Under the pieces are notes generated by a model that ran no database searches, was not told the DNA's origin, and worked only from the letters and a program-made list of their open reading frames with translations. A stretch of DNA of 64,000 bases, taken from contig JAFVFY010000056.1 of NCBI GenBank assembly GCA_017475265.1, positions 30,031 to 94,030 on the forward strand, given 5' to 3'. The translations under genes and the position numbers were made by a program. The stretch is from Prevotella sp. Lineage in GTDB: Bacteria; Bacteroidota; Bacteroidia; Bacteroidales; Bacteroidaceae. Positions 1,434 to 63,585 of the stretch are shown one piece after another; position 1 is the stretch's first letter, and every line of letters starts with the position of its first letter.

Positions 1434-1485
1434 TTGAGGTTTGAGACTTGAGATTTGAGGTTTGAGATTTGGGGTTTGAGATTTT
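1434..1485 (-). repeat. Short tandem CTCAA-family array between two co-directional genes
   Basis: On the plus strand this spacer is a run of TTTGAG(G/A) words, that is, CTCAAA/CTCAAG units in the sense of the flanking genes. It belongs to the repeat family found at many other points in the window, including inside coding regions. Confidence 0.8.
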
Positions 1486-2445
1486 TCACTTTTCACTATT
1501 CACTAGCGAAGTGTAAGTCACCTCGTGTTTCAGCACACGATTCTCCAGCAAGAGGCTACTGGCCAACTTGACCATATCAGGTCGCAGCCTGAACTCCCGT
1601 TTCCCTGTCTCACGGTCGGTCTGCAACCGCAGCACCTCGTCCAGCATCAGCTTCTGTAGTGTCCGGTTGGTGGCCACGTGGTTAAGCTTCACATATTTCA
1701 TCACAATATCCAGCGTCTCTTCAGGATGTTCGGCAGCCCATTCCCATCCCTTCTGGCTGGCACGGGCAAACTTGTCGGCCTGCTCTTTGTTGCGCTCGTA
1801 GACATCGCGGCGCATGTACACGCCGTCTTCCTGAACGTTGTACTCATGGTCACAGAAACGGTAGACGTTTTCATCCTTCAGCTGGATGCCCGTCTGAAGC
1901 AATTGGTAATACTCGTTGTAGCTCATGGCCACGATGGCATCGATGGCACCTCGGATGAAAAGGTTCATCTCCGATGCGTAGTACACCCACTCGTAGCCCA
2001 ACCCTTCTTTCTGGCTCATACACATGGCCATCTCTCCGAAGTCGGCTTTCCAGATGCCCACGCGTTCCCCTTTCTGCTCCAACGGGTTCTTGCCACGCCG
2101 CGACACGATGACCAGCGCGTTGTTCATGGATGTCTGCAAGATGTTAATGAGCGGCACGCCACTGTCCACAATCTTCAAGGCCTGGCAAAGTTGAAGTGTC
2201 GTCGCATCGATGTCGTCGTCCTCCACGCGGCTTAAGGCCGACTGCGTGGCCGACGGGTGTACGATGTCGACGTCGATGCCCTCCTCCTTATAGAAGCCCT
2301 TCTCCTGGGCAACATAATAACCAGCAAACTGTGCCTGTGCTTTCCATTGCGGCGTGAACACAAAGCGCTTTTGCGACCATGAGGCCAAGGTCGGCAGCAT
2401 CAGAAGCACGGCAATGACTAATATCAGCTTTCTGTTTCTTTTCAT
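1486..2445 (-). CDS. NMT1/THI5-like ABC-type solute-binding protein
   Basis: A 319-residue protein from the ATG at 2445, which begins MKRNRKLILV with a hydrophobic signal segment up to about residue 24. A longer reading from 2589 would run through the promoter and a repeat, so it is not preferred. The mature part has the SsuA/ThiY/NMT1 pattern: FTPQWKAQAQFAGYYVAQEK, GFYKEEGIDVDIVHP and MNNALVIVSRRGKNP. Such proteins capture pyrimidine precursors, sulfonates or similar small molecules outside the membrane. No permease or ATPase follows; the next gene is a membrane SpoIIE phosphatase, so a sensory role feeding that protein is possible. Substrate is unknown. A TACCTTTG promoter element lies 32 bp upstream of the start. 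Confidence 0.8.
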   Translation of the reverse strand: MKRNRKLILVIAVLLMLPTLASWSQKRFVFTPQWKAQAQFAGYYVAQEKGFYKEEGIDVDIVHPSATQSALSRVEDDDIDATTLQLCQALKIVDSGVPLINILQTSMNNALVIVSRRGKNPLEQKGERVGIWKADFGEMAMCMSQKEGLGYEWVYYASEMNLFIRGAIDAIVAMSYNEYYQLLQTGIQLKDENVYRFCDHEYNVQEDGVYMRRDVYERNKEQADKFARASQKGWEWAAEHPEETLDIVMKYVKLNHVATNRTLQKLMLDEVLRLQTDRETGKREFRLRPDMVKLASSLLLENRVLKHEVTYTSLVNSEK

Positions 2446-2551
2446 CCTCTTCGCATGATTGATTATTTTCAGTGTGCAAAGGTAGTGCAAAAAAAACATA
2501 TACCGAAGCTTTTGCCCGTTTTTTATCAAAGAAAGTGTTAGTTTCTTGAGA
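2445..2551. repeat. 107-bp direct repeat, copy 1 (promoter and leader of the binding-protein gene)
   Basis: Matches 3867-3973 with about five mismatches in 107 bp. It runs from the start codon of the binding-protein gene, through its promoter, to the last codons and stop of the RAYT gene. Together the two copies flank the RAYT gene exactly. Confidence 0.9.
2477..2484 (-). promoter_or_regulatory. Bacteroidetes -7 element (TACCTTTG) for the solute-binding protein gene
   Basis: Plus strand CAAAGGTA, read as TACCTTTG on the minus strand. It predicts a start about 25 nt before the ATG at 2445. No good -33 TTTG is seen at the usual spacing. The element lies inside the 107-bp direct repeat. Confidence 0.6.
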
Positions 2552-61955: not shown

Positions 61956-61983
61956 ATTGAAGATTGAAGATTGAATATTAAGG
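61956..61983 (+). repeat. GATTGAA short repeats after fucP
   Basis: GGATTGAAGATTGAAGATTG and AATATTAAGG between fucP and the GH28 gene. Confidence 0.6.
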
Positions 61984-62016
61984 AGAAAACCACTACTAAC
62001 CATATTAATAACAACT

Positions 62017-63585
62017 ATGAAACGTACATTAACTACTATCTGTGTCCTGGCATTGGCCGTAACTCTAAATTCTCAGCTCGGCCAAAGGACGTTTGCGCAG
62101 CAAGAACCCTCCGCTCGACCGAAGGACGCTTGCACAGCAAGAACTCTCAACTCTCAACTCTCAACTCTCAACCCCTACTCAAAGTACACCCAGGGGCTAC
62201 CCTTCGACATGCCCGAGCTTTCAGCTCCTAAGATTGCCAACAACAGCGTTACGCTCAGTCAGTTCGGAGCCGACAATACCGGTCAGAAACTATGCACCGA
62301 GGCCTTTGTCAAAGCCATCGATGCCCTCACTCAGAAGGGCGGTGGCCACCTCATCGTCCCCCGTGGCGTATGGCTCACAGGCCCCATCGTACTCAAGTCA
62401 GGCATCGACCTCCATCTGGAGAAAGGCGCCGTCATACAGTTTGCTGCCGACGAGAACCTCTATCCCCTCGTCAACACATCCTTCGAGGGACTTGACACCC
62501 GTCGCTGCCAGTCACCCATCAGCGCCAACAATGCCGAGAACATATCCATCACCGGCGAAGGTGTCATCGACGGCAACGGACAGTACTGGCGGCCAGTAAA
62601 GAAGTCGAAGGTCACCGACAGCCACTGGAAACGCCTCCTCGCTCAGCCTGGCAGCGTCGAGATAAGGAAAGGTTACTGGGTGCCCTCCGAAGGCTTTGCC
62701 AAGGGTGAGCAAGGAGCCAACATGAACGTGCCCACCGCCCAGACCGACGAGGAGTGGGAGGCCGTCAAACGGTTCCTGCGTCCTGTCATGGTCAGCCTCG
62801 TGGGTTGTAAGAACGTCCTCCTCCAAGGAGTCATCTTCCAGAACTCACCAGCATGGAACCTCCACCCGCTGATGTGCGAGAACATCATCGTCGAAAACCT
62901 CCTCGTTCGCAATCCGGCATACGCCCAGAACGGCGACGCCATCGACCTCGAGTCCTGCAAAAACGCCCTTATCATCAACTCCCGCTTCGATGCCGGCGAC
63001 GATGGCATCTGCCTCAAGAGCGGCAAGGACAAGGATGGACGCCGTCGCGGACGCCCCTGTGAGAACGTCGTCGTAGACGGCTGCACCGTATTCGCCGGAC
63101 ATGGCGGCTTCGTCGTCGGCTCCGAGATGAGCGGCGGCGTCAGGAACATCAGCGTCAAGGACTGTCAGTTCGTCGGTACCGACGTCGGACTGCGCTTCAA
63201 GAGCACTCGAGGACGCGGCGGCATCGTGGAGAACATCTACATCGACGGAATCTCCATGACCGACATCGCCACCTACGCCCTCACTTTCAATATGTATTAC
63301 GGAGGTAAGTCAGTCGCCGAAGTCCTGGCAGAAGGAGGGAACTCAGATGTCTCCTCCGCACCTGTGGTTCCTGTCACTGAAGAGACGCCCATCTTCCGCA
63401 ACATCGACATCCGTAACGTCATCTGCCATCACGCCGGCTACGCCATGGAATTCAACGGACTACCCGAAATGCCCATCGACGGCATACACCTCAAGGACAT
63501 CTACATCCTGTCGAAGAACGACGCAACCTTCAACTTCAGCAAGAACATCACCAAGGAGAACGTCAACATCGTGCTTGAGGAATAA
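62017..63585 (+). CDS. Secreted GH28 polygalacturonase-like enzyme with repeat-derived N-terminus
   Basis: 522 residues. Signal core MKRTLTTICVLALAVTLNSQ; residues 17-56 are made by repeats (a 37-bp pair at 62076-62144 and a CTCAA array), giving LGQRTFAQQEPSARPKDAC and TLNSQLSTLNP before the true domain start YTQGLPFDMPELSAPKI. The beta-helix GH28 core has FQNSPAWNLHP, NGDAIDLESCKN, FDAGDDGICLKSG with the catalytic Asp pair, GHGGFVVGSEMSGGVRN with the catalytic His and RFKSTRGRGGIVENI. It hydrolyses galacturonan or rhamnogalacturonan linkages in pectin, outside the cytoplasm. Signal cleavage probably falls at TFAQ-Q, itself inside repeat sequence. Confidence 0.92.
   Translation: MKRTLTTICVLALAVTLNSQLGQRTFAQQEPSARPKDACTARTLNSQLSTLNPYSKYTQGLPFDMPELSAPKIANNSVTLSQFGADNTGQKLCTEAFVKAIDALTQKGGGHLIVPRGVWLTGPIVLKSGIDLHLEKGAVIQFAADENLYPLVNTSFEGLDTRRCQSPISANNAENISITGEGVIDGNGQYWRPVKKSKVTDSHWKRLLAQPGSVEIRKGYWVPSEGFAKGEQGANMNVPTAQTDEEWEAVKRFLRPVMVSLVGCKNVLLQGVIFQNSPAWNLHPLMCENIIVENLLVRNPAYAQNGDAIDLESCKNALIINSRFDAGDDGICLKSGKDKDGRRRGRPCENVVVDGCTVFAGHGGFVVGSEMSGGVRNISVKDCQFVGTDVGLRFKSTRGRGGIVENIYIDGISMTDIATYALTFNMYYGGKSVAEVLAEGGNSDVSSAPVVPVTEETPIFRNIDIRNVICHHAGYAMEFNGLPEMPIDGIHLKDIYILSKNDATFNFSKNITKENVNIVLEE
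62076..62175 (+). repeat. 37-bp tandem pair plus CTCAA array in the GH28 N-terminus
   Basis: GCTCGGCCAAAGGACGTTTG (62076) and GCTCGACCGAAGGACGCTTG (62113) start two imperfect copies ending GCAGCAAGAAC; then AACTCTCAACTCTCAACTCT and CAAC units to 62175. Confidence 0.88.

Follow-up and report, generated by a model that had tools for sequence, protein, structure and literature searches.

The 64,000-nucleotide stretch analysed here (hereafter the window; Prevotella sp., assembly GCA_017475265.1, contig JAFVFY010000056.1, positions 30,031 to 94,030) holds tandem copies of a heptamer, CTCAANN, at eleven places, which are probably copies of a short spreading repeat that persists in genes only where the reading frame is kept. 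The repeat is present at every one of the eleven places listed in a preliminary description of this DNA. Nine of them have three or more exact CTCAA cores, spaced by 7 bp, and the other two have two each. Two arrays adjoin the start of a gene: seven units at 1434-1480 (- strand) abut the start codon of a - strand gene lying below them, and six units at 19669-19708 (+) lie in the gap before the gene at 19709-20497 and abut its ATG (CTCAAATGAAG). The four-unit arrays at 31006-31031 (+) and 32886-32911 (+) overlap gene ends in antisense, the former at the 5' end of open reading frame (ORF) 30073-31017 (-) and the latter at the 3' end of ORF 32908-33657 (-); the placement of these four arrays corrects the preliminary description. 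An array of six units, two of which have CTAAA cores, lies at 55208-55247 (+) in the gap before the gene 55286-58366 (+).

The other six places lie within genes, in the open sense in each case, as previously described. Six units at 17955-17994 (+) encode residues about 64-77 of truA (17763-18515, +), and four units at 50719-50744 (+), preceded from 50690 by other heptamer-like repeats, are found in a variable loop of PyrC (49926-51314, +). Three units at 53948-53966 (+) lie near the C-terminus of an AlkZ-related gene (53308-53997, +), and four units at 62146-62171 (+) near the N-terminus of a GH28 gene (62017-63585, +), where the array directly follows roughly two copies of a 37-bp cassette (CGCTCGACC..GGACGCTTGC..AGCAAGAA; 62072-62145, +). 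The two-core copies are at 47366-47377 (-) in a GH2 gene (46035-48989, -) and at 54020-54031 (+) at the N-terminus of a LysA-type gene (53998-55197, +). Pfam bears out the six names, returning tRNA pseudouridine synthase, amidohydrolase (PyrC), AlkZ-related, pyridoxal-phosphate decarboxylase (LysA type), GH28 and GH2. In addition, TCAATGG-type heptamers form an inverted pair at 24341-24417 of the window, the two arms being separated by a short loop.

The period of the repeat is 7, and the unit consists of a kept CTCAA pentamer followed by two free bases, which replaces the initial account of a 7-8 bp period with CTCAACT, CTCAATT and CTCAAAT units. A search for exactly repeated pentamers builds in two variable positions, and we relied instead on units lying between two cores, for which every 7-mer was taken, so that the core itself was not selected. 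CTCAA is kept in 93 of these 103 units, a conservation that the search did not build in, with A43, C39, T19 and G2 at position 6 and T69, C24, A6 and G4 at position 7. The free bases are more similar within one array than between arrays.

The genome of the window (G000; 4.75 Mb in 135 contigs) contains 375+321 = 696 matches to the three-core pattern CTCAANNCTCAANNCTCAA, overlapping ones counted. The reversed pattern gave 60+50 matches; we do not consider this a clean control, since CTCAACT arrays themselves contain AACTC spaced by 7 bp. Individual arrays were examined in 772,281 bases, comprising the window and 39 further stretches, a sample that is not random, since most stretches come from contigs already known to hold matches. 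It includes 171 of the 696 matches and 67 arrays with at least three exact cores; extrapolated by three-core matches, G000 would hold about 270 CTCAANN arrays, about 180 of them in genes. The original observation is thus confirmed, and the phenomenon is larger than was stated.

Genes were called with a home-made hexamer-based ORF caller rather than a standard one (coding fraction 0.905), which places 44 of the 67 arrays inside genes, 11 over a gene edge and 12 in intergenic sequence. Those within genes comprise 34 internal sense arrays, five N-terminal, four C-terminal and one antisense, and some of the N-terminal arrays, such as that at window position 1434, probably lie before the true start. 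Ten of the 11 edge arrays are antisense, and five of these run over a gene's 3' end, alone or in addition. The single antisense array within a gene (L252, position 9867, in a threonine-synthase-like gene) forms one arm of an inverted pair and has a changed core in two of its five units. By Pfam and position, the hosts include TruA, PyrC, IleRS, AlaRS, DXS, a MurE-type ligase, RelA/SpoT, a second Mur ligase with two arrays, a Mur ligase/alanine racemase fusion and several glycosidases.

Orientation within genes is strongly one-sided, with 43 of the 44 CTCAA arrays of at least three exact cores in the open sense. The claim that all coding copies are open is not supported as it stands: a search that did not demand intact cores recovered 13 stop-sense arrays in genes of G000 (six TCAATGN, five TCATTTN and two CTCAANN), in which the in-frame TGA has been changed. 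The TGA of the repeat is intact at none of 14 in-frame places, a result forced by the definition of an ORF, and at 38 of 40 out-of-frame places, which is not forced; the changes therefore fall on the in-frame stop. The replacements are TCA at ten places, TTA at two and GGA at two. ORFs contain no stops by definition, which makes the underlying census of stop content partly circular; it served only to find stop-sense arrays. The stop-containing orientation is far from equally common in genes, as the lag census described below has 40 in-gene CTCAANN arrays in the open sense and two in the stop sense; the 80 loci from relatives add four stop-sense cases in genes. A 21-bp form carrying TCA has 21 matches at 16 sites in G000, and all 16 sites are inside called genes, in sense and in the only open frame (IDHSPLT), although the search pattern fixed TCA, so that other stop replacements could not show.

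Comparison with orthologues identifies lineage-specific inserts in IleRS, PyrC, DXS, AlaRS and the MurE-type ligase. IleRS of G000 carries ten extra residues, the 21 other sequences displayed being of one length, and the insert is present in none of 29 orthologues. Among the 27 orthologues of the MurE-type ligase that could be aligned, 26 lack an insert and one (L411) has a different insert; two further loci had no aligned residues. Measured against solved homologues (the best alignment of each), the ligase has 11 extra residues and TruA, compared with E. coli TruA 1dj0, about 8. Across 110 loci (some genomes held twice), CTCAA arrays occur at the PyrC loop only in G000 and G035; elsewhere the loop, read by eye, holds TCTCACC, TCACTCC, GTACGAG with its inverted partner, GGAGAGA, TTCAAAG or TCAATGG repeats, and in further relatives it contains other sequence or is short. 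At the DXS loop G000 has a CTCAANN array and its relatives have either other repeats or no repeat, and the AlaRS loop, also read by eye, has repeats spaced by about 9 bp in six of 29 orthologues. Between pairs at 87-89% DNA identity (L107/L123, L120/L135 and L126/L146), whole arrays are present in one member and absent from the other, or different families occupy the same site. Distant orthologues do not share the residues at array sites, although one other genome, G035, has an array of the same family at the PyrC loop.

Other kinds of insert were noted at or near the same genes. CTAG-centred repeats of about 9 bp lie in frame at loops that hold CTCAANN in G000, namely in AlaRS (L381, L384, L387 and L391) and DXS (L222). 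Palindrome-like in-frame inserts rich in CTCC/GGAG and unrelated to the heptamers occur in L180 (IleRS, about residue 235) and L209 (about residue 820), and small palindromes of the type TGTCGCGA..TCGCGACA at the PyrC loop of L093, L120, L126 and L135. In addition, a 51-bp hairpin-rich insert interrupts a heptamer array in one of two relatives of 97% DNA identity (L115, about position 1391, compared with L119).

CTCAANN is not a lone invader, as first envisaged, and that idea is rejected on the evidence of a lag census covering 0.42 Mb of G000 (the first sample) and 0.98 Mb from 80 loci of relatives. Arrays at lag 7 number 69 in the former and 128 in the latter, compared with 0 to 12 for any other period between 5 and 13; period 14, twice the unit length, gave nine in G000 and 18 in relatives, and no lag-7 array appeared in one second-order Markov shuffle of each set. 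CTCAANN accounts for 34 of the 69 arrays in G000, and 64 consensus units of heptamer arrays were counted among the relatives' loci. CTCAANN is thus the dominant member, in G000, of a wider class of heptamers whose families differ between Prevotella species. The three-core pattern is present in 86 of 150 genomes of the genus, with up to 517 matches each, and absent from 37 of 69 good-quality ones; the best PyrC match to G000 among the 150 congeners is 73% identical. The CTCAA family is not confined to the genus, since 53 of 296 genomes in a phylum sample carry the pattern, mostly with few matches each. A four-core pattern was found in at least 120 stretches of viral contigs, the free bases being identical in 53 of 138 arrays among the matches listed; these matches neither support nor exclude carriage of arrays by phages.

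Some arrays belong to larger structures. Opposite-sense neighbours within 150 bp have the TTGAG arm first in both pairs of the G000 sample and in all ten pairs of other stretches, which were partly picked for inverted pairs (G010, G061 and G124). Across genomes, five close pairs with TTGAG first and none in reverse order are present among the matches listed, a set that overlaps with the ten. A TTGAG arm within 110 bp stands upstream of five of 66 CTCAA arrays (four pairs) and downstream of none, and an opposite arm was read by eye at eight of 16 sites of the TCAATGG family, within the 40 bases displayed. The arms of the inverted pair at window 24341-24417, together with a similar loop, recur in coding copies in which the in-frame stops are changed. 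The cassette CGCTCGGCC.AA..GGACGCTTGC, a variant of which precedes the GH28 array of the window, has 51 exact matches in G000. CTCAA flanks it on both sides in 17 of 30 copies examined, three of which share one site and two of which lie at near-identical contig ends; 17 of the 30 copies are in called genes, all in sense and with all three frames represented. No target-site duplication was noticed, without a systematic duplication test, inverted pairs involve a minority of arrays, and array ends are ragged.

The period, the conserved core, the number and orientation of the arrays, their open frame, their absence in orthologues and the different repeats at the same loops are probably explained by a short spreading heptamer repeat whose copies survive in genes on one condition, that their length, strand and register preserve the frame. 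Each new copy, of a few units, would reach its site by copying of existing arrays and would not grow from local sequence. The copying step may be a switch of template at the pentamer while DNA is repaired or replicated, or may involve an enzyme; the core would then be what this step requires, as microhomology or recognition site, and the free bases would not matter to it. In spacers, arrays would be tolerated in either direction. In genes, a tolerated copy would add a multiple of three bases, present a stop-free strand and register or a changed in-frame stop, and fall in a protein loop or end, where it would be translated as a near-neutral peptide resembling NSQLSTL. Some arrays are arms of inverted pairs or flank the repeated cassette. 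The earlier proposal of a spreading repeat filtered by selection is therefore partly supported: the one-sided orientation and the lineage-specific inserts agree with it, and its restriction to a single family does not stand.

Several points weigh against this explanation. No donor, enzyme or target duplication was found for the arrays, and their ends are ragged. The comparisons are between species only, so that current spread is unproven. The 43 of 44 open arrays and the 0 of 14 intact in-frame stops are both partly forced by the ORF definition. At IleRS, longer segments that are not repeats lie near the insertion point in three orthologues (L202, L205 and L206), and this place is therefore not rigid in length across the genus. 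Finally, the lag census includes arrays of identical or nearly identical units, such as TG-only ones, which would fit slippage.

Local slippage, by which arrays grow in place from chance short repeats under a polymerase-related preference for 7-bp steps, survives best among the alternatives and is nevertheless unlikely. Such a process has been suggested for the abundance of heptamers in bacteria (PMC4692102). It would accommodate the preference for period 7 whatever the sequence, as well as the 21-bp in-frame form where a single site has two or three copies of it (L442, L446, L453 and L457), which resembles triplication in place. Independent growth from chance seeds should, however, yield scattered units, and the finding that 34 of 69 lag-7 arrays are CTCAANN favours copying; indeed, that a single core recurs at hundreds of places in G000 is evidence against slippage acting independently at each, and the IleRS and ligase orthologues displayed have no such repeat at the site. 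The exchangeability of the free bases within arrays speaks, weakly, against stepwise duplication, of which there is also no sign in the neighbouring units, since 104 of 231 neighbours are equal, compared with 110 +/- 4.5 in within-array shuffles, a count that has little power in arrays this short and to that extent also tempers the case for copying. Stepwise duplication of neighbouring units was accordingly set aside.

A more speculative proposal, to which we give a rather small chance, is that a dedicated machine in this Prevotella group writes arrays of a fixed pentamer and two variable bases, the pentamer being species-specific. Such a machine would explain why the period is sharply 7, why the core is fixed and the free bases exchangeable, why the families are species-specific and why loops are reused; if it exists, essential genes would be undergoing continuing insertional mutagenesis in frame. 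Two other candidates were dropped. A Y1 (IS200/RAYT) transposase as driver shows no association by presence, PF01797 being found in 10 of 17 array-rich genomes (those with 40 or more three-core matches) and in 88 of 150 genomes overall; G000 itself has three PF01797 matches. A replication-strand bias was abandoned because the one-stranded appearance of some genomes gave way, in a fuller listing, to both strands interleaved.

It is very unlikely that the arrays are regulatory sites under selection, such as the targets of an RNA-binding protein near start codons that have been proposed for TAACTGA repeats. A conserved core with free spacing bases, and arrays at, or at most 15 bp from, a called gene start would suit this function, but 34 of the 44 arrays in genes are internal, only 12 of the 67 are intergenic, and many complete genomes of the genus (37 of 69) have no arrays. 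Less probable still is that NSQLSTL-like segments are adaptive linkers selected at the protein level: the same loops of PyrC, DXS and AlaRS are indeed reused across species, but they hold unrelated peptides or none in different species, and the same DNA also occurs in spacers and in antisense at gene ends. An artefact of assembling a fragmented draft genome is most unlikely. The 135 contigs of G000 and the metagenome origin of many relatives would fit it, but arrays are also present in G010 (three contigs) and G061 (two contigs) and the inserts in conserved genes keep frame, the absence of arrays from five single-contig congeners (G016, G024, G045, G117 and G122) being likewise counted against it.

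Degenerate heptamer arrays are known from cyanobacteria as short tandemly repeated repetitive (STRR) heptamers. TAACTGA heptamer direct repeats occur at many sites, patchily over species including Bacteroidetes, with in-gene copies limited by stop codons, and are suspected of mobility by an unknown mechanism (MacGregor 2015, PMC4679880). CTCAANN likewise forms heptamer direct repeats at many loci (the 696 overlapping matches), but the TAACTGA unit is fixed whereas positions 6 and 7 of CTCAANN are free, and TAACTGA copies lie mostly in intergenic sequence just before start codons whereas CTCAANN arrays are mainly in genes (PMC4679880). The GGGANTN / GGGGA(C/T)T heptamers of Xanthomonas and Nostoc, discussed as quadruplex-forming, share with CTCAANN the combination of conserved and free positions, the many sites and the frequent occurrence of four units; they are, however, G-rich and intergenic, whereas the CTCAA strand is G-poor and the sampled arrays are mostly intragenic (PMC4692102). 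Rickettsia palindromic elements are small repeats of several families found in frame in unrelated genes, as CTCAANN is in IleRS, the MurE-type ligase, DXS, PyrC and AlaRS, but they measure about 150 bp and encode one conserved peptide each, whereas the CTCAANN arrays span tens of bp and are tandem and mostly not palindromic (review PMC10969869). BrickBuilt of Porphyromonas gingivalis, a miniature inverted-repeat transposable element from a related order, also contains a tandem repeat, but its unit is 23 bp, against 7 bp here, and its 19 copies in one strain are always intergenic, whereas CTCAANN is often in genes (PMC4596501). Repetitive extragenic palindromes with their associated tyrosine transposases (REP/RAYT) and IS200 elements go with a Y1 transposase, for which the CTCAANN arrays show no association by presence. 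Searches of open-licence full texts, which do not cover subscription papers or preprints, turned up no description of these Prevotella arrays. The arrays combine degenerate heptamer units with a mostly intragenic position in the sample, presence in essential enzymes, species-specific families and the erasure of in-frame stops.

If the arrays are indeed spreading copies, one bacterium would tolerate roughly 180 in-gene arrays of a single family by extrapolation, core enzymes included. Such genomes would then provide a natural scan for the loops at which essential proteins can be lengthened, and a setting in which to study why it is repeats of seven bases, rather than of some other length, that multiply in bacteria. 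Annotation is affected as well, since proteins become longer with the inserts and called starts and stops are displaced.

The window contains further repeats of other kinds. Intergenic arrays spaced by 9 bp, with AATTCGT followed by two variable bases, lie at 15181-15268 and 29157-29262, the latter consisting of three near-identical 36-bp copies. Two arrays of a ACTATTTG-type repeat of 7-8 bp (60426-60461 and 60559-60616) lie in intergenic sequence, oppositely oriented and separated by about 100 bp, and CGATTTN-type arrays, also in opposite orientation, flank a small ORF (22314-22694) at 22259-22293 and 22696-22713. Longer tandem repeats are found at 3187-3385 (18 bp x 11) and 35467-35559 (22 bp x 4).

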